A stretch of 64,000 bases of DNA, from the NCBI GenBank assembly GCA_937899835.1, contig CALCCE010000138.1:1-64000 (forward strand), written 5' to 3'. Positions within the stretch are counted from its first letter, which is position 1; each line of letters starts with the position of its first letter. The translations under genes and the position numbers were made by a program. Positions 2,587 to 32,448 of the stretch are shown here, one piece after another. The notes under the pieces are model-generated. The model made no database searches, was not told where the DNA came from, and was given only the letters and a program-made list of their open reading frames with translations. This DNA comes from an uncultured Flavobacteriales bacterium (GTDB taxonomy: Bacteria > Bacteroidota > Bacteroidia > Flavobacteriales_G > Salibacteraceae).

Positions 2587-4002
2587 TTAAAAACTAAGGG
2601 CTTTGCCCTGGTAAAAGTCAAGCACTTTAACCTTGTATACGTAATCGAATTTCGCTCGAAGCAGATCGGACTGGGCCCGGAGCAAGTTGTTTTTGGCCAG
2701 GTTGTAGTCTACTGCATTCAGCAAGCCAACATCAAAACGCTGCTGGGCATACTTGAACGATTCTTCCAAAGCTTCCACCGATTTGAGGGTGGCGCGGTAG
2801 TTTTTGGCAGCCGCCACCGCATCGGCATAAGCCGACTCAATGTTTTGCCGCACGTTGTTCTTGGTCAACTCCAGGTCTTTGGCCGCCACCTCCATGTTCA
2901 ATCGGGCCCGGCTGATGTTGGTATGGGTATTCAAACCGTTGAAAATGGGTACCGAAAGGGTAAACCCAATGGAGCGGTTGAGGTTGTCCTCAATTTGATC
3001 CCCAAAAGATTTGGTGCGCAAGGTGGTACTGGCCGAGGGCGCAATCACTTGTTCGTTCCCATTTTCCGTCACTCCGATGACCTGTGTAGTTGCCGTAACG
3101 GACTCTATTTCCTGAGCCGCACCAGAATAACCCGTACCGTAAGAACCGGAAAGTACCAGGCGAGGACTCCGCCCACCTTTGGCAATGGAGTAGTTCACCG
3201 CAGAGCTTTCGAGGCGGGTTTCCGCACCTTTAATATCGGGCAGTTGGGTCAAGGCCATGTCATATACCTGCCCGGGACGGGCTTCTACGCCCACTTGCTC
3301 GGGCAATTGCACGTTGGGCACTTCCACTTTCATGTCGGTGTTGGGCTCCAATTGCATCACCTGCTTCAGGGCGAGATAAGAAAGATCAAGGTTGTTTTGT
3401 GCCGTAATCACGTTCAATTCTTCGCCTGCCAGCTGGGCTTCCAAATCGTAAAGGTTTCCTTTGGGCAGGCTACCGGCATCCACCAATTTGCGGGTCCGCT
3501 CCACTTGCTGTGCAGTGATGTCGCGCTGGGCCTGGGCAATGCTCAACAACTCTTGATTGAACAATACCTGAATATAAAACCCTGCCACTTGCAGCGAAAT
3601 ATCGTTTCGGGCTTTGTCCAGATCGTATTGACTGGCTTGCAAATTGAGTTGACTTTGCTTGATGCTGTTGGTGGTCTGAAATCCGTTAAAAACCACCACA
3701 CTCGAATTCAGTGAGAAATTGTTGGAGCGCACCCGGGAAGTGGCAAACTCGTTGGTGAAAGGATCAATGGTTTGTCCAAAGCGGTAAAAGTTAGTGGCCG
3801 TTCCGTTAATGGTCGGTAGCGTATTCGCTTTGGCGTTCAGCAACCAGGCTTCATTGATTTGAGTAGTTAAGGCGCTGCGCTGAATGTTGAGGTTGCTTTC
3901 CATCGAGTACTCGATGCACCTTTCCAAACTCCAGGTTTCCTGGGCACAAAGCGGTGTCAAGAAGCCCCCAAAGGCCAAAAAGAAGAAAACGATTTTTTGC
4001 AT
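2587..4002 (-). CDS. TolC-family outer-membrane efflux protein
   Basis: 471 aa with a cleavable signal peptide (residues 1-20, ending LCAQ before ETWSL). The two-fold repeated helical arrangement of the OEP family is visible: WSLERCIEYSMESNLNIQ opens the first repeat, and a second helical region (NISRARLNMEVAAKDLELTKNNVRQNIESAYADA) follows a stretch of polar insert around residues 270-330. It would form the outer-membrane exit duct for the adaptor encoded next. It is first in the minus-strand run tolC-adaptor-tsaB. A TAGTTTTG box 35 bases upstream is the likely promoter. Confidence 0.9.
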   Translation of the reverse strand: MQKIVFFFLAFGGFLTPLCAQETWSLERCIEYSMESNLNIQRSALTTQINEAWLLNAKANTLPTINGTATNFYRFGQTIDPFTNEFATSRVRSNNFSLNSSVVVFNGFQTTNSIKQSQLNLQASQYDLDKARNDISLQVAGFYIQVLFNQELLSIAQAQRDITAQQVERTRKLVDAGSLPKGNLYDLEAQLAGEELNVITAQNNLDLSYLALKQVMQLEPNTDMKVEVPNVQLPEQVGVEARPGQVYDMALTQLPDIKGAETRLESSAVNYSIAKGGRSPRLVLSGSYGTGYSGAAQEIESVTATTQVIGVTENGNEQVIAPSASTTLRTKSFGDQIEDNLNRSIGFTLSVPIFNGLNTHTNISRARLNMEVAAKDLELTKNNVRQNIESAYADAVAAAKNYRATLKSVEALEESFKYAQQRFDVGLLNAVDYNLAKNNLLRAQSDLLRAKFDYVYKVKVLDFYQGKALSF

Positions 4003-12413: not shown

Positions 12414-12515
12414 TCACTCATCGGTCCGCTTTAGCGGTAGGTATTGGCACCTTCTAAAAATAGTGGTTGCCAAGGTTTCAACGGGCCTAATCCCTCCACC
12501 TTTCTGGATAAGTAA
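12414..12515 (-). ncRNA. SAM-I (S-box) riboswitch aptamer
   Basis: On the minus strand the conserved S-box blocks appear in order: CTTATCCAGAAAGGTGGAGGG, then GGCCCGTTGAAACC, then TTGGCAACC and GGTGCCAATACC, closing with GATGAGTGA. The 5' TTACTTATC and 3' GATGAGTGA strands form a 9-bp P1 with two wobble pairs. The aptamer is followed by an intrinsic terminator and the split methionine synthase genes, so binding of S-adenosylmethionine is expected to switch methionine synthesis off. Confidence 0.93.
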
Positions 12516-14502: not shown

Positions 14503-15696
14503 TTAGATAAGATAGAAGAAGGTAAACACAAATACCCATACCAAATCCACAAAGTGCCAATAGAGGCCAACCTTCTCCACCATTTCATAGTGACCGCGGT
14601 TATGGTAAGTGCCTTTCAATACACCCAATAAGATGATGAAATTGAGGATTACACCACTCAAAACGTGCGTACCGTGAAAACCGGTGATGAAGAAAAAGAA
14701 GTTAGCATATAAAGTATGACCGTATTCGTTCCGCGAAAGGCTTGCGCCTCGAACGTGTTCGTTCGTGTGCATCACTTCGGCAACAAGTTCTGCCTCTTTA
14801 ATGGTGTCGGTTCTTTCGAGGACCAACGCCCAAGCGTATTTTTCTTGATTTGGAATTTCTAATGGATTTTCCCAATCTACCGCTTCTTCGTGTCCGTGGG
14901 CATCACCATGATCATGGCCATGGTCATTCCCATAGTGTCCACTTTCATTGTCGTGTTGGGCATGGCTTTCTGCGTGGTCATCACTATGGTCCGCATGGTC
15001 ATCACCGTGGCCGGTGTGAGCATCACCATGTTCGGCATGAGCATCACCATGGCTGGCATGTTCATCACCGTGATTGGCATGGCTGTCACCATGGTTCGCG
15101 TGAGCATCACCGTGATGCTCACCATCGTGTGCATGTTCTTCACCTTCTGCCAATGCAGGGGCCGCAGCTTCATGACCTCCACCGTGACCATGATCATCGT
15201 TCATGTTGATCAAAGTAGCCATTCGGCCGTCGGCCATACGGTAAGCTCCATAATCAGAACCTTTAATGAAGGAACTCCACTCCCATACTTGAGACCCTAA
15301 GAATATAGCTCCGCCTACAACGGTCCATGCCATCCATCTGGTCACTGCTTTACGGTCCATCCGGTGACCCGCTTCCACAGCGAGAACCATGGTTACCGAA
15401 CTTACAATGAGGATAAAAGTCATGAGCGCCACATACATCAGTGGCAAGAAAGCATGAGTGAAAGGAAAGTGCCAAAAAACATTTTCACTTACCGGCCACG
15501 CTATTTCACCAACCATCGCATCGGTTTCATAACGGTGCTTGGCAAAACCGAGGGACACCAACAGTCCTCCAAAAGTGAGGGCATCCGAGATGAGGAAAAA
15601 CCACATCATCATTTTACCATAGCTTACGCTAAAGGGTGAACGGCCGCCTTCCCAGAGGACTTTAGTAGGAATAGATTTTGATGCTTCTCCAGACAT
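14503..15696 (-). CDS. Cytochrome c oxidase subunit III with a large His-rich insert
   Basis: 397 aa from ATG 15696 (MSGEASKSIPTKVLWEGG); the open frame extends 13 codons further up without conservation. The COX3 fold is recognisable before and after the insert: MMMWFFLISDALTFGGLL, LMYVALMTFILIVSSVTM, and after it FFFITGFHGTHVLSGVILN and GLYWHFVDLVWVFVFTFF. Between them, about residues 168-270, lies a segment with 28 histidines in ~103 residues, built partly of HGDxHAx heptads. The insert is likely extramembrane and could bind Cu, Zn or Ni ions; that is inference. A second, shorter subunit III gene lies just upstream. Confidence 0.88.
   Translation of the reverse strand: MSGEASKSIPTKVLWEGGRSPFSVSYGKMMMWFFLISDALTFGGLLVSLGFAKHRYETDAMVGEIAWPVSENVFWHFPFTHAFLPLMYVALMTFILIVSSVTMVLAVEAGHRMDRKAVTRWMAWTVVGGAIFLGSQVWEWSSFIKGSDYGAYRMADGRMATLINMNDDHGHGGGHEAAAPALAEGEEHAHDGEHHGDAHANHGDSHANHGDEHASHGDAHAEHGDAHTGHGDDHADHSDDHAESHAQHDNESGHYGNDHGHDHGDAHGHEEAVDWENPLEIPNQEKYAWALVLERTDTIKEAELVAEVMHTNEHVRGASLSRNEYGHTLYANFFFFITGFHGTHVLSGVILNFIILLGVLKGTYHNRGHYEMVEKVGLYWHFVDLVWVFVFTFFYLI
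14985..15130 (-). repeat. In-frame 21-bp tandem repeat coding for His-rich heptads
   Basis: Inside the subunit III gene about six or seven imperfect 21-bp units encode successive HGDAHAN, HGDSHAN, HGDEHAS, HGDAHAE, HGDAHTG and HGDDHAD heptads. The unit keeps the reading frame, so copy-number change would lengthen or shorten the metal-binding-like insert without breaking the protein. Confidence 0.75.
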
Positions 15697-27071: not shown

Positions 27072-27989
27072 TTAGTCTTTTGAAAAGTAGTCGGATGATT
27101 GGTAGCGGCCGGTTTGTTGCTTCACCAGTTGCATCAATACATCGTTGGCCAGGCGGCTGGCGCCAAAGCGGAACCAATGGTTGTTCATCCAGGCGTTGCC
27201 CAAGGTTTCTTTCAGCATCACCAGGTAATGAAGGGCAGGCTTGGCGGCCGAAATTCCTCCAGCGGGTTTCATGCCGACCATTTTTCCGGTTTGGAAATAA
27301 AAATCGCGGATGGCTTCCAACATCACCAGGGTGACGGGCATGGTAGCCGCTGGTTTTATTTTTCCGGTGGAAGTTTTGATGAAATCTGCACCGGCATGCA
27401 TCGCGATCTCACTGGCCCGTCGAACACTGTCTAAGGTACCCAACTCGCCAGTCTCTAAAATCACTTTAAGCCGGGCCTCGCCACAGGCGGCTTTTACTGC
27501 CGCAATTTCGTCGTATACGTAGTTGTATTCTCCCTGATGAAAGCGACCTCTGGAAATCACCATGTCTACTTCGTCGGCCCCTTCGGCTACCGCAAACCGG
27601 GTATCGTCCAGCTTCACCGGCATCGGAGCCTGCCCGCTGGGAAAAGCGGTGGCTACAGAAGCTACCCGGATACCACTATCGCCCAAGGCTTGTTTGGCTA
27701 CCCGCACCAAAGACGGGTACACACAAACGGCCGCCACGGTAGGCAGGCCATCGTAGGCATCGTGTAGGTGGCGGGCTTTGTAGCACAATTGTCGCACCTT
27801 GTTTTCGGTGTCTTGCCCCTCCAGGGTAGTGAGGTCGATCATGCTCAAGGCCAATTTCAAACCGGCTACTTTCGCTTCTTTTTTGATGCTTCGGGTTCGA
27901 AAACGAGCGGCCCGCTCTTCTACGCCCACCTGATCTATGGTAGGCGTTAGTCGAAAATCGGGTATGGTGGTTGGTACACTGGAACTCAT
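27072..27989 (-). CDS. deoC: Deoxyribose-phosphate aldolase
   Basis: 305 aa, the longer class of DeoC. The Schiff-base lysine is K205 in ADFIKTSTGK and the second essential lysine is K241 in VGMKPAGGIS; the Asp in EVDMVIS lies upstream. It cleaves 2-deoxyribose 5-phosphate to acetaldehyde and glyceraldehyde 3-phosphate, in deoxynucleoside breakdown. It is followed directly by two ALDH genes, which fits disposal of the acetaldehyde. Its upstream region is unusual: a nine-unit palindrome array begins about 170 bases before the start codon. Confidence 0.94.
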   Translation of the reverse strand: MSSSVPTTIPDFRLTPTIDQVGVEERAARFRTRSIKKEAKVAGLKLALSMIDLTTLEGQDTENKVRQLCYKARHLHDAYDGLPTVAAVCVYPSLVRVAKQALGDSGIRVASVATAFPSGQAPMPVKLDDTRFAVAEGADEVDMVISRGRFHQGEYNYVYDEIAAVKAACGEARLKVILETGELGTLDSVRRASEIAMHAGADFIKTSTGKIKPAATMPVTLVMLEAIRDFYFQTGKMVGMKPAGGISAAKPALHYLVMLKETLGNAWMNNHWFRFGASRLANDVLMQLVKQQTGRYQSSDYFSKD

Positions 27990-28162: not shown

Positions 28163-28612
28163 GGTTTGACTCAAAGCGTTGCATGAAATTTTACCGTGCA
28201 ACGTTTTCCGTTTCGGTTTGATTCAAAGCGTTGCATAAAATTTTACCATGCAACGTCTCTCTTTCGGTTTGACTCAAAGCGTTGCATGAAATTTTACCGT
28301 GCAACGTCTCCCTTTCGGTTTGATTCAAAGCGTTGCATGAAATTTTCCTGTGCACCGTTTTCCGTTTCGGTTGGATTCAGAGTGTTGCGTAAAGTTTTAC
28401 CACGCAACGTCTCCCTTTTGATTCGATTCCAAGTGTTGCGTGAAATTTTACCACGCAACGTTTTTCGGTTTGGTTTGATTCGAAGTGTTGCGTGAAATTT
28501 TGCCGCGCAACTTCTCCCTTTAAGTTTCTTTCAAAGCGTTGCGTAAAATTTTGCCGTGCAACGTCCCCCTTTGGGTTCGACTCAAAGCATTGCGTGAAAT
28601 TTTGCTGCGCAA
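28163..28612. repeat. Nine-unit 51-52-bp array of covarying inverted repeats
   Basis: Nine head-to-tail units; the landmark TCAAAGCGTTGC (or variants) begins at 28171, 28223, 28274, 28325, 28377, 28428, 28480, 28531 and 28582, giving spacings of 51 or 52 bases. Each unit holds an inverted repeat around AAATTTTACC. In units 1-3 the arms are GTTGCA / TGCAAC; in units 5-7 they are GTTGCG / CGCAAC. Unit 2 has a perfect 8-bp pair (CGTTGCAT / ATGCAACG) and unit 6 another (GTTGCGTG / CACGCAAC), so arm bases changed together. Unit 4 has one broken pair and unit 9 is shortened. The 51/52 alternation breaks any reading frame, and there are no unique spacers, so it is neither coding nor CRISPR. Confidence 0.85.
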
Positions 28613-28753
28613 ACACTTTATGCCTGGCAATACCTTTGTTGCCCATTCGGTACGTAAGTAGGATGACTACCATCAGCGCTTTGGCCCTGCCTTTGAAGTG
28701 CACCAGCATCGGCATCAATTCTCCAGAGCGATTTGACTTGCACCAGTAGCAAC
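28613..28753. other. Spacer between the array and the TonB cluster
   Basis: A short inverted repeat GGCAA / TTGCC (28625-28642) is the only structure seen. It may be a decayed array unit. No gene or promoter was recognised. Confidence 0.3.
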
Positions 28754-28787
28754 GAAAAGAGGCCGAATCTGTTAAGAAACGGCCTCT
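28754..28787 (-). terminator. Intrinsic terminator of the TonB cluster
   Basis: AGAGGCCG (28758-28765) and CGGCCTCT (28780-28787) form an 8-bp GC-rich stem with a 14-base loop. On the minus strand it is followed by TTTT, immediately downstream of the last TonB gene. Confidence 0.7.
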
Positions 28788-28813: not shown

Positions 28814-29482
28814 TTACTGAAGCGTAAACTTGATGGGCAGGTTGTACTGCACACGCACGGGCTTACCCCGCTGCTTCCCTGGCGCCCAGGTAGGCATGGA
28901 TTTTACTACCCGGATGGCTTCTTCGTCACAACCTCCACCGATACCACGGAGGAGTTTCACGTTGGCGATTTTACCGTTTTCCATCACTACGAAGGTGACA
29001 AACACCCGACCCTGTATGCCGGCCTCTTTGGCCATTTGAGGGTATTTGATGGATTTACCAAGGTATTTGAACAATTCGGCTTCTCCCCCAGGGAAAGAAG
29101 GCATGTCTTCTACAATGGTGAAAATTTCGGGTTCTTCTACTACTTCCTCTTGCACTTCCACGATCTCGATTTCCATGTCTTCTGTCGCTTCCATGTCTTC
29201 GATTTCCAGTTCCTCTTCAATCTCCTCGTCGTCTTCCACGATTTCGATGACTTGTTGCTGAACGGGTGGCGGAGGTGGCGGTGGAACTTCTTGCTGGGTA
29301 ATGGGAATCATTTCTTCTTCCTCTACTTCCATTTCGAGTTTTCCCAGGTCCTTGACTTCGTTTTCAATTTGTGCTGCTTCCAACAAAATGAGTACAAAGG
29401 CCAGGGAAAAAGCAAAGCCGGTCCAGAACAACAGACCACGCTTTCTCTCCAAATCAACTTCCTGACTCTTCTTAACGTCCAT
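28814..29482 (-). CDS. TonB-family energy transducer with acidic linker
   Basis: 222 aa. A short cytoplasmic basic start (KKSQEVDLERKRG) leads into one membrane anchor (about 18-36). A periplasmic linker with a PPPPPPP run and a very acidic stretch (EDDEEIEEELEIEDMEATED, about 83-103) follows, then the TonB C-terminal domain (about 125-222) with MPSFPGGEAELFKYLGKSIKYP and WAPGKQRGKPVRVQYNLPI. TonB proteins carry proton-motive energy from ExbB/ExbD to outer-membrane TonB-dependent receptors. An acidic linker is unusual compared with the common Lys/Pro-rich linker. It is the last of five TonB-domain genes in a row; no ExbB/ExbD is in view. Confidence 0.88.
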   Translation of the reverse strand: MDVKKSQEVDLERKRGLLFWTGFAFSLAFVLILLEAAQIENEVKDLGKLEMEVEEEEMIPITQQEVPPPPPPPVQQQVIEIVEDDEEIEEELEIEDMEATEDMEIEIVEVQEEVVEEPEIFTIVEDMPSFPGGEAELFKYLGKSIKYPQMAKEAGIQGRVFVTFVVMENGKIANVKLLRGIGGGCDEEAIRVVKSMPTWAPGKQRGKPVRVQYNLPIKFTLQ

Positions 29483-29547
29483 CAGGGAGTTTATTTAGAG
29501 TGGCTAAAAATCACAAGATTTTCGGGATATGCCCCGAATAAAAACTT

Positions 29548-30120
29548 TTAGAATCGAACAGGTATTATCATTTGCATGGGCAAGGTCTCGCCTCGATTTC
29601 GGGCCGGTTTCCAATCGGGCATGTTTCGAACAACCTCCAGGGCGGCTTCATTGAATTCGCGGGCACATCCTCGCATTACACTGGGCTGGGTTACCTTCCC
29701 GCTTTCATTTACGATCATGCGCACATATACTAGCTCACAAGGATTTGGACCATCGTTGGAAACCTTTTTGAGGTTCCGGGCAATGTAATTACGAACCCCT
29801 TCATCACCTCCGGGAAAGGAGGGCATTTCTTCTATGACCCTAAATTGAAGGCTATCAGTAGAATCCGTTGGTGCCTGTGTGCTGCTTTGTAAATTTTGAG
29901 TCACGATTTTCCTCATTGGTGGCGCCACTAACTCAAACGGCAACATGGAGGCCATTGCTACGTGGCTTTGGTGTGCCAATTGGCCCGATTGTTCTTTGCT
30001 GGGCTTCCCCTCGCCAGGCAGCACCAAAATCTGCCATTCCAATGCCAAGAGGATGATTCCGAGGGCAACACCAAGGCCCAAGACTGCAATTTTAAATTCT
30101 GAAAAGTGAAAACGCGGCAT
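29548..30120 (-). CDS. TonB-family protein, short
   Basis: 190 aa. One N-terminal membrane segment (about 10-28, KIAVLGLGVALGIILLALEW) is followed by a linker lacking Pro/Lys repeats and a C-terminal TonB-like domain with MPSFPGGDEGVRNYIARNL and NMPDWKPARNRGETLPMQMIIPV. Two cysteines (CELVYV and MRGCAREF) could form a disulfide in the periplasm. It starts 6 bases after the stop of the secreted TonB-domain gene, in the same probable operon. A partner receptor cannot be named. Confidence 0.8.
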   Translation of the reverse strand: MPRFHFSEFKIAVLGLGVALGIILLALEWQILVLPGEGKPSKEQSGQLAHQSHVAMASMLPFELVAPPMRKIVTQNLQSSTQAPTDSTDSLQFRVIEEMPSFPGGDEGVRNYIARNLKKVSNDGPNPCELVYVRMIVNESGKVTQPSVMRGCAREFNEAALEVVRNMPDWKPARNRGETLPMQMIIPVRF

Positions 30121-30126
30121 GGCGGA

Positions 30127-30558
30127 TCATTTGAGGTGAAATCGAATGGGACAAAATTGTTTTACCGAAACCGGGACACCGCCCATAGTTGCCGGTTCCC
30201 AGTTGGGCATCTTGCGAAAAGCAGCCACCACTGCTTCGCTAAAAGCCGGGTGAGGACTCCTGGTAATTTCCAACTCAGTAACAGCACCCGTTTCACTGAT
30301 GGTGTACTGAATGATCACTGTTCCCGTAACGTAATTGTTCCGCAAGGTGTCCGGGTATATTAAGTTGTTTCTCAAAAAAAGATACATGGCGGCCTCGCCA
30401 CCTGGAAATTGGCACGCTGTCGACACACGTGGCACATCACTTGCCTCTTGGTTTGCCGTATCGGCGGGAGCTAATTTTTCATCCTGACCCAATGCCCAGG
30501 ATGAAAACAAGATCGCACCCAACAACACCAGGATCCGGTATTGCACCCATGCGGTCAC
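30127..30558 (-). CDS. Secreted protein with TonB C-terminal-like domain, no membrane anchor
   Basis: 143 aa. The N-terminus (MTAWVQYRILVLLGAILFSSWALGQ) looks like a cleavable signal peptide ending ALG-Q and not like a retained anchor. The mature part is almost only the TonB C-terminal fold (FPGGEAAMYLFLRNNLIYP, GTVIIQYTISETGAVTELE, MPNWEPATMGGVPVSVKQFCPIRF). Without an anchor it cannot take energy from ExbBD in the usual way, so it may be a periplasmic accessory or competitor; this is inference. Its start overlaps the upstream TonB gene by 4 bases. Confidence 0.75.
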   Translation of the reverse strand: MTAWVQYRILVLLGAILFSSWALGQDEKLAPADTANQEASDVPRVSTACQFPGGEAAMYLFLRNNLIYPDTLRNNYVTGTVIIQYTISETGAVTELEITRSPHPAFSEAVVAAFRKMPNWEPATMGGVPVSVKQFCPIRFHLK

Positions 30559-31235
30559 TTCAATTGGAAATGGATCGGTACCACATAAAAAACCGGCACT
30601 TTTTTACCACGCTGTTCACCGGGTATCCAGTCGGGGAAACTTTTGACTACTCTTTTGGCTTCCGCATCGAGGTAAGGGTTCGTCTTACCCACCACTTCAA
30701 CGTCGGTTACTTTTCCCGTTTCACGTACAACGAATTGCACATGTACTTTCCCTTGAATATTCTCGCTCTTGGCAATGTGTGGGTACTTCAAGTGCTTCCC
30801 CATGTAACGCATCAGGGCTGACTCCCCGCCAACAAATTCTGGCATTTGTTCCACAATCCTAAAAGGCTCTATCACGGTATCCGCTACTTCGGGGGTAAAC
30901 CAGGCAGAATCGTTGTCAAAGATACTGGGGTCCGGTTCTACGGGAGGATCGATCGGCGAAATTGGCATTACCACTACTGGTGGATTCGGATTGGGCTTGG
31001 GCGCGGCTTTGGAGACCTTTGGCTTGGGTTTCTTAGGCACTTTTTTCAAGACAACAATGGGAGGTAATGGATCTACTATAGGATCAATTAATGTCAAATC
31101 TTCGTCGATTTCGGGAATTTCGAAGGGCGTTTGCCATTCAAAGGCTAAGAGGGTGCTGGCGGAGGCGATGGCCAGGCCGATGAGGAAGTTGCGGCCACGG
31201 TGGTTTTGGCGAGAGCGTTGAGTAAATAAGTTCAT
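30555..31235 (-). CDS. TonB-family energy transducer
   Basis: 226 aa with the classical layout: basic cytoplasmic start (TQRSRQNHRGRN), one membrane anchor (about 17-31), a Pro/Lys-rich linker (VPKKPKPKVSKAAPKPNPNP, about 65-85), and the C-terminal TonB domain with MPEFVGGESALMRYMGKHLKYP and WIPGEQRGKKVPVFYVVPIHF. It is the first gene after the bidirectional terminator at 31262-31321, and it overlaps the next gene by 4 bases, so it heads a four-gene run to 28814. No good TAnnTTTG box was found upstream; read-through from gcvH is possible. Confidence 0.9.
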   Translation of the reverse strand: MNLFTQRSRQNHRGRNFLIGLAIASASTLLAFEWQTPFEIPEIDEDLTLIDPIVDPLPPIVVLKKVPKKPKPKVSKAAPKPNPNPPVVVMPISPIDPPVEPDPSIFDNDSAWFTPEVADTVIEPFRIVEQMPEFVGGESALMRYMGKHLKYPHIAKSENIQGKVHVQFVVRETGKVTDVEVVGKTNPYLDAEAKRVVKSFPDWIPGEQRGKKVPVFYVVPIHFQLK

Positions 31236-31261
31236 GGTAGTATCAGGTTTAGCGCTTAGTG

Positions 31262-31320
31262 AAGAAAAAAAGGTGCTCTTCGAATGCTGTGGGAGTTCAA
31301 ACCAAGCAAAAGCACCTTTT
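31262..31320 (-). terminator. Terminator between the first and second TonB genes
   Basis: AAAAGGTGCT (31268-31277) pairs perfectly with AGCACCTTTT (31311-31320) across a 33-base loop. On the minus strand the stem ends in an extended T run (complement of 31265-31271), so it should end or reduce transcription after the gcvH-vanZ-tonB genes. Confidence 0.7.
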
Positions 31321-31360
31321 CATTCAACCTAAACAATGATCGTTGTGTACGTCTGAGCGC

Positions 31361-32062
31361 CTAGTTTTTCAGCTTAAATTTTACGGGGATGCGAATGCCA
31401 ACCGGCACCGGGTTGTTGCGCTGCTTCCCGGGGCTCCATTTGGGAAACATCTTTACCACCCGCTCGGCTTCTTTGTCGAGGTAAACATTTTTGCCGCGTG
31501 CGGTGGTCACCTTGGTCACGTTGCCATCTTTATCAATGATGAACTGAATGAAAACAGTGCCTTGAATGCCTGCCTCCCGCGCAATGGCTGGATATTTCAA
31601 GTGCTTGGCGAGAAAAGCGTAGAGGGCTTTTTCCCCTCCGGGATATTGCGGCATTTCTTCTACCGGCACAAAAATGTTGTCGCGGTCGTCCACAAAGGTT
31701 GGCTCGGCTCCAAAAAGCAGTTCGTCGTCCATGGAAGCCATGTTAAAATCATCGATCACCGGATCGGTCGTGGTGGTAATTTGAGTCATTACCGTTACTT
31801 CCACCGGTTGGGTAATCACTTGCGTGGAAACCTTGGGTTTAAAAATGGGCTTTGGTTTTTCTACGTTGGTGTAGGTGATGGGAGGCAATTCTTCTTCGTC
31901 GAGCTCCAGGTTGGCCATGTTGGCCAAGTCATCGTTAAAAGGGTCGAGGGGGGCTCGCCATTCGAAGGCCAACAAGGTTAAAGAACAAGCAAAGACTAAT
32001 CCTGTGAGAAAAAAACGGGTGCGCTTTTTCTCCAGGTTCGCAAAGTCGGATTTGGGGTTCAT
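31361..32062 (-). CDS. TonB-family energy transducer of the gcvH-vanZ operon
   Basis: 233 aa from ATG 32062 (MNPKSDFANLEKKRTRFF), 5 bases after the vanZ stop; the frame is open upstream but overlaps vanZ without TonB character. A membrane anchor (about 17-33) is followed by a moderately acidic linker with a short VEKPKPIFKPKVS motif, and the C-terminal domain with MPQYPGGEKALYAFLAKHLKYP and WSPGKQRNNPVPVGIRIPVKF. The order gcvH-vanZ-tonB is conserved in many Bacteroidota. It is followed by a terminator that separates it from the other four TonB-domain genes. Confidence 0.9.
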   Translation of the reverse strand: MNPKSDFANLEKKRTRFFLTGLVFACSLTLLAFEWRAPLDPFNDDLANMANLELDEEELPPITYTNVEKPKPIFKPKVSTQVITQPVEVTVMTQITTTTDPVIDDFNMASMDDELLFGAEPTFVDDRDNIFVPVEEMPQYPGGEKALYAFLAKHLKYPAIAREAGIQGTVFIQFIIDKDGNVTKVTTARGKNVYLDKEAERVVKMFPKWSPGKQRNNPVPVGIRIPVKFKLKN

Positions 32063-32067
32063 GGCAA

Positions 32068-32448
32068 TTAGGTATTTAGTTTTCCATAGATGAGTCGGAA
32101 GAAAAGGACGCCGACAAAAGAGCCGGCAGTGTTGGCCAACATGTCCAAAACTTCTGCACTCCTGGAAACAAAAACCGTGCCTTGAAGAAATTCTAAGAAA
32201 ATACCGTAAACAATTGCGAGCGAAACGGCCCACCAAATGGGAGATTGGCGCAAAGGTGCCAAACGGGTTTTCCGTTGAAATCCGAAGATCAACAGTGCGC
32301 TCAAAACGCTGTAGAGGAAAAAATGAACGAGTTTATCTGCCCCTTCAAACAAAAAACCAGGCTGTGGTACCTGGTTGCGGGGAATAACGGAGAGGAAAAA
32401 AATAAACCCGGCCCACAAAAGACCGGGTAGATTCTTTATCAAAAACAT
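32068..32448 (-). CDS. VanZ-family membrane protein
   Basis: 126 aa from ATG 32448 (MFLIKNLPGLLWAGFIFFLS), 22 bases after gcvH. Upstream in-frame starts would overlap gcvH. Four membrane segments and the VanZ-like signature are visible: DKLVHFFLYSVLSALLIFGF and FLEFLQGTVFVSRSAEVLDMLANTAGSFVG. The family is named for a teicoplanin-resistance gene, but its general biochemical role is not known. It is co-directional and probably co-transcribed with gcvH and tonB. Confidence 0.85.
   Translation of the reverse strand: MFLIKNLPGLLWAGFIFFLSVIPRNQVPQPGFLFEGADKLVHFFLYSVLSALLIFGFQRKTRLAPLRQSPIWWAVSLAIVYGIFLEFLQGTVFVSRSAEVLDMLANTAGSFVGVLFFRLIYGKLNT

Follow-up and report, generated by a model that had tools for sequence, protein, structure and literature searches.

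Intergenic palindrome arrays as candidate binding sites of a lineage-specific XRE-HTH/coiled-coil family in an uncultured Flavobacteriales bacterium

The array between deoC and a TonB gene

The window, meaning the whole 64,000-nucleotide stretch analysed here, contains an array of palindromes at 28163..28613, in the gap between two minus-strand genes. On one side lies deoC (27072..27989; PF01791), whose start faces the array, and on the other a TonB C-terminal-domain gene (28814..29482; PF03544, TonB_C), whose end faces it. The latter is the nearest to the array in a tandem run of five consecutive TonB C-terminal-domain genes on the minus strand (28814-32236). Between its stop codon and the array, a separate inverted repeat (AGAGGCCG..CGGCCTCT, then TTTT) lies at 28758..28787 on the minus strand, outside the array; judged by eye, it looks like the terminator of the TonB gene. 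A scan of genome contigs based on deoC returned distant loci only, mostly from Chitinophagaceae. Elsewhere in the window, a SAM riboswitch was found at 12415-12514 on the minus strand (RF00162, 84.2 bits), and a tandem repeat of 21/42 bp at 14972-15116 apparently codes for a histidine-rich stretch.

Nine palindromes of 25 bp each (tile A; 28178-28613) alternate with linkers of 26 or 27 bp (tile B), the first of which occupies 28203..28229 between palindromes 1 and 2. The spacings are 52, 51, 51, 52, 51, 52, 51, and 51 bp, and the array has a TRF score of about 500. An initial annotation, made from the sequence letters, had placed nine units with 51/52-bp spacing at 28163-28612 between the TonB gene and deoC, and the measurements agree with it. 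Palindrome 1 (28178..28202) reads GTTGCATGAAATTTTACCGTGCAAC and palindrome 2 (28230..28254) reads GTTGCATAAAATTTTACCATGCAAC; palindrome 3 (28281..28305) is identical to palindrome 1, and palindrome 4 (28332..28356) has one mismatch, its right arm being TGCACC. Palindromes 5 (28384..28408), 6 (28435..28459), and 7 (28487..28511) belong to the G6-C class. Palindrome 8 (28538..28562) is an uncompensated G6.T case (GTTGCG/TGCAAC), and the outer pair of palindrome 9 (28589..28613) has decayed to a mismatch (ATTGCG..CGCAAA). The arms GTTGCR/YGCAAC therefore match fully in six of the nine units, with units 4, 8, and 9 as exceptions. Covarying arms had been described as GTTGCA/TGCAAC in units 1-3 and GTTGCG/CGCAAC in units 5-7; this is correct for those units but passes over the three exceptions. 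Within the window the covariation is weak, being essentially a single change, with A-T in units 1-4 and G-C in units 5-9, and the strong evidence for it is genome-wide. The description of the array as free of any continuous reading frame was inexact: ORFs of 99, 113, and 85 aa run across it, although none passes the hexamer score by which genes were called. A CRISPR array was rejected because the linkers within the array resemble each other instead of being unique. Integron attC sites were rejected on the same ground and because the arm order GTT..AAC differs from that of attC core sites.

Distribution, tiling and covariation of the palindromes

The genome searched is a fragmented, 98%-complete assembly of 6.9 Mb in 307 contigs. 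Genome-wide counts were obtained from pattern searches and fetched regions, and per-cluster counts from fetched regions. Comparison of the array DNA with its own genome revealed three further arrays with the same 51-bp unit (C227, C74, and C255; about 80% identical) and many further short matches confined to the palindrome. The pattern GTTGCRTRN{6,16}YGCAAC occurred 99 times in this genome, against four matches for the reversed pattern, and the stricter YGTTGCRYN{9,12}RYGCAACR 98 times, against none for its reversed control. The strict count was 0-1 in each of 41 other genomes of the order and 0-4 in each of 394 sampled genomes of the class; the genus is represented in this comparison by the present genome, and restriction was judged at the level of order and class sampling. 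Direct comparison thus established a repeat family that is abundant, among the bacterial genomes examined, in this one only. The initial annotation had proposed such a search of the genome and its relatives for the unit consensus, and had named a one-off recent duplication as evidence against a structural role; that condition does not apply, since the genome has some thirty other clusters, and the pattern is rare elsewhere. Searches of plasmids and phages at the DNA level, of viral contigs with the palindrome pattern, and of all three with the HTH protein described below gave no match, and a plasmid, phage, or viral origin was rejected. The isolated half-site AAGYGTTGCRTR occurred 60 times against 6 for its control, and the idea of an uptake sequence was rejected because most of these copies sit within palindromes already listed. 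No description of these arrays was found in the open-access literature, though one may still exist.

The DNA examined contained 33 intergenic clusters with at least two palindromes. None of the 33 lies wholly within a called gene, though 78% of this DNA is coding. Fifteen clusters are located between two called genes, in five tandem, six convergent, and four divergent gaps; the remaining gaps with a length of 100 bp or more (n=74) comprise 46 tandem, 8 convergent, and 20 divergent ones. Convergent gaps are thus enriched for arrays (6/15 versus 8/74, p 0.012), and the placement fits neither ordinary operators nor, strictly, terminators. Apart from the HTH family, the search for genes common to array flanks gave only one further homologous pair, L015:276-1298 and L143:3126-3977, whose products are 28% identical and match no Pfam family.

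The palindromes in the fetched regions are 25, 26, or up to 28 bp long, with variable centres and locus-specific linkers. The greatest length is reached by a second stem class, GGTGCR..YGCACC, which forms arrays with 53-56-bp units at L142:5260-5382, L145:1-240, L143:4406-4594, and L144:4600-4930, without a nearby HTH-family gene. Across arrays, the spacings fall into groups of 25-26, 46-55, 66-77, 93-94, 103-108, and 126-127 bp. A period of 25 bp is strong (Rayleigh R 0.735, n=56 locus/spacing values), whereas no concentration was found at 10.5 bp (R 0.118, p 0.46). The spacings therefore step by about 25 bp, which is one palindrome length, rather than by helical turns, and this quantisation was directly established. 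The helical phasing that had been proposed for the window array is not supported: spacings there average 51.4 bp (4.9 turns), and other arrays are spaced differently.

In some arrays (e.g. L013), the gap is occupied by a second palindrome of 25-27 bp, GTYKCCC..GGGCAAC, which abuts tile A. Several window linkers start with GTCTCCC, the left arm of this palindrome, and the window aligns with L013 at the linker (77% over 70 bp). For this reason, the window linkers may be read as a decayed second tile, in which case 25 plus 26 or 27 bp would make up the 51/52-bp unit. Between L019 and L020, which are similar loci, the difference is exactly one 25-bp tile. Contig ends fall inside arrays in many cases, and therefore true array lengths may exceed those seen. 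Two pairs of contig ends, L022 (C267 end) with L131 (C264 start) and L021 (C149 end) with L018 (C50 start), have a 93- or 94-bp unit in common, and because of this each pair probably represents the two ends of one collapsed array.

Covariation was assessed in 114 sites in clusters, with expectations taken from column make-up and with 5000 shuffles. Position 6 pairs in 100 of the 114 sites against 52 expected, and position 2 in 107 against 82; neither count was reached by any of the 5000 shuffles. The two positions also covary across loci (p 2e-13), and position 6 retained p 8e-7 when each state was counted once per cluster; the kinship of copies within arrays weakens these contrasts without removing them. 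The compensated arm changes described for the window thus hold across the genome at stem positions 2 and 6, and this pattern is a direct observation. At positions 7 and -1, 108 and 105 of the 114 sites, respectively, combine a left-hand pyrimidine with a right-hand purine, yet these positions do not covary: 49 pairs against 54 expected at position 7 and 54 against 52 at position -1, with C.A combinations at both as frequent as chance. Since these positions have the same pyrimidine-purine step context as positions 2 and 6, they serve as an internal control, and mutation bias alone therefore does not explain the coupling at 2 and 6. A constraint on base class without pairing suits half-sites read in the duplex better than a longer hairpin.

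Genes that follow the palindromes

A gene that recurs beside the clusters came to light when the cluster flanks were compared with one another. The proteins it encodes, about 295 aa long and 28-66% identical to the first member, have an N-terminal XRE/HTH_3 domain (E 9e-14 to 4e-10, with four proteins at 4e-10 or better and the C293 protein at 3e-11) followed by a coiled coil. An AlphaFold model from only six sequences, with a mean pLDDT of 73.8 and a pTM of 0.41, predicted the HTH domain together with a pair of long helices at 91-149 and 154-232. Foldseek matches (P22 c2, C.BclI, and ClgR; none below E 0.001) fall essentially in the HTH part, as do the PDB sequence matches of the family. Full-length members were found only in this genome among 395 genomes of the class, 42 of the order, and 396 of the phylum, and one other sampled genome matched over the HTH alone.

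A whole-genome protein search with one member, independent of the palindromes, returned seven paralogs. One of them (C218) has lost its 5' end at a contig end; the other six, which have upstream DNA, all carry palindromes ahead of the start codon, at a distance of about 55-420 bp. Three palindromes precede the paralogs on C97 (about -296 to -199), C112, and C161, two precede those on C305 and C155 (about -416 to -365), and one precedes the divergent member on C293 (about -81 to -56). A random gene has a cluster so near in about 0.4% of cases; the six genes are not six independent events, since the paralogs share ancestry. The paralog loci are similar in DNA over the genes and for no more than about 75 bp ahead of them, indicating that the distal palindromes were kept or regained. 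A palindrome also lies inside the 3' coding end in three of the six genes. The sites of the C293 gene are A6-T, and those of the other paralogs are mainly G6-C. An XRE/HTH_3 gene adjoining such sites was thus observed directly for 6/6 testable paralogs. The window array is an exception, being a solitary cluster without an adjoining family gene, as are most of the 33 clusters. At L125, upstream of a minus-strand HTH gene starting at 3001, a tandem repeat (GGGGACACGATTGGCATTCCAGCGG) lies between the gene start and the palindromes. The C161 gene (L126:5404-6321) is apparently frameshifted near its 3' end, where the homologous C-terminus matches in another frame.

Proposed function, rival explanations and known systems

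Because this genome, alone among those sampled, has a family whose genes follow such palindromes, the association suggests that the palindromes are binding sites of the XRE-HTH/coiled-coil family. A cluster of DNA-binding sites was among the options raised by the initial annotation, and it gains real support from a family of candidate proteins with palindromes upstream of their genes, to which we infer binding. We consider it somewhat probable that the window array consists of operator-like sites of this lineage-specific family, amplified as tiles of about 25 bp. Each palindrome of 25-28 bp would consist of two inverted half-sites, roughly AARYGKTGCRYR, around a centre that varies; a dimer of one family member, with its XRE/HTH_3 domain and long two-helix coiled coil, would bind it. 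The family genes would be autoregulated through the palindromes upstream of their own starts; this autoregulation is likely because members have such sites in front of their own genes. Local tandem duplication and dispersal may have multiplied the sites as tiles, so that arrays came to occupy many gaps between genes. Where an array stands alone, like that in the window, coiled-coil protein bound to as many as nine sites could bridge, compact, or organise the DNA; alternatively, the sites may merely titrate the protein. If paralogs with differing preferences at positions 2 and 6 bind as homodimers, both half-sites would be expected to change together. The match of the A6 and G6 classes to paralogs comes from a single divergent gene (C293), and the two classes occur together in the window array. 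Several observations do not favour operators. Site length varies (25, 26, and 28 bp), which is unusual for one rigid dimer, and the clusters are mostly away from family genes, many of them in convergent gaps without an obvious operator target; the arrays of the GGTGC class likewise have no family gene nearby. A broader proposal, that the expanded protein family and about 100 cognate 25-bp palindromes coevolve and organise or mark the chromosome, with positions 2 and 6 as a paralog address code, would match no described family that we found; we regard it as speculative and rather unlikely. Since the linked protein is repressor-like with diverged paralogs and the sites differ at two coupled positions, a single genome here provides a natural test of how such a family and its sites across the chromosome co-expand and diverge in specificity. 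Arrays that might have been dismissed as junk also gain a concrete candidate protein.

For extragenic palindromes of bacteria, the usual explanation is a transposase (RAYT), if one is offered at all. The present palindromes could likewise be selfish elements, similar to REP/BIME or MITE, which dispersed, later underwent tandem amplification, and serve no function in the host, the HTH genes being either an autonomous partner or merely near the repeats. High copy number, lineage restriction, intergenic position, tandem arrangement with locus-specific linkers (93-, 94-, 118-, and 126-bp units), and the single-tile difference between L019 and L020 are all consistent with this, and some HTH genes are flanked by palindromes on both sides, like rayt genes between REPs (PMC2817692). 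REP elements are physically linked to RAYT transposases and correlate with them (PMC2817692), have GTAG/CGTC tags (PMC3733652), and are known to bind proteins (PMC2817692, PMC3733652). The 98 strict copies, 25-26 bp long and intergenic, agree with the size and abundance of REP/BIME elements (20-40 bp, extragenic, high copy), and the resemblance extends to tandem clusters and a linked protein gene. However, a GTAG or CGTC tag was found beside 0/108 palindromes on either strand, and no match to the Y1 transposase (RAYT, PF01797) was found in the 98%-complete genome; membership of the RAYT-type REP/BIME group was therefore rejected. The partner here is instead an XRE-HTH/coiled-coil protein in which no nuclease or transposase domain was found; its genes are preceded by palindromes and in some cases contain one at the 3' end. 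Positions 2 and 6 have also kept compensated changes whereas positions 7 and -1 vary freely, which is not neutral decay. A selfish origin thus appears unlikely, though with an appreciable chance.

Transcription of the array into a multi-hairpin RNA, with the hairpins acting in protein binding, stability, or processing, is less probable still. The covarying stem positions would fit it, as would the folding of the window array relative to shuffles (RNA z -5.4 and -4.5 on the two strands; DNA z -7.1 on the plus strand), although such folding is expected of any inverted-repeat array. The 51-bp subfamily is oriented, and T.G predominates among its non-Watson-Crick pairs on the window plus strand; this pattern may reflect one ancestral state, since any single transition from T.G yields a Watson-Crick pair. 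Positions 7 and -1, directly beside the stem, do not covary genome-wide. The array matches no Rfam family, its plus strand is antisense to both neighbouring genes, and a scan for sites of terminator type and for promoters of sigma-70 type, which does not cover Bacteroidota promoters, returned none in the array region; the gene contexts of the arrays are mixed and include divergent gaps. Bidirectional transcription termination would be in keeping with the enrichment in convergent gaps and with the AAAAAGT..ACTTTTT frame around many palindromes, but the stem of just 6 bp with a loop of 13 nt speaks against it, and no site resembling an intrinsic terminator (GC-rich stem, short loop, T-tract) was found at the window array. 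Moreover, 4/15 arrays lie in divergent gaps, and conventional GC-rich terminators are present separately beside several arrays, which makes this explanation very improbable.

As putative sites of the XRE-HTH/coiled-coil family, the palindromes may be compared with those of autoregulated repressors of the XRE/Cro-CI type (P22 c2 and restriction-modification C proteins), which likewise combine an HTH_3 domain with palindromes upstream of their own gene. The present family differs from them in its long coiled-coil C-terminus, its seven paralogs, its about 100 sites genome-wide, and the wide spacing of its half-sites (19-22 bp centre to centre). The arrays also resemble MIRU and other intergenic minisatellites, which are dispersed tandem repeats whose units measure about 50-100 bp; here, however, a palindromic core is common to the loci and the linkers are locus-specific. 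BrickBuilt of Porphyromonas gingivalis is a MITE/minisatellite of 19 copies with 23-nt tandem units, no spacers between the repeats, and leader and tail ends with small inverted repeats (PMC4596501). It is the nearest tandem intergenic element found within the phylum and, like the present arrays, is species-restricted, always intergenic, and composed of short tandem units in a member of the Bacteroidota. The two are differently built, the tile here being a palindrome with compensated changes and a partner protein family.
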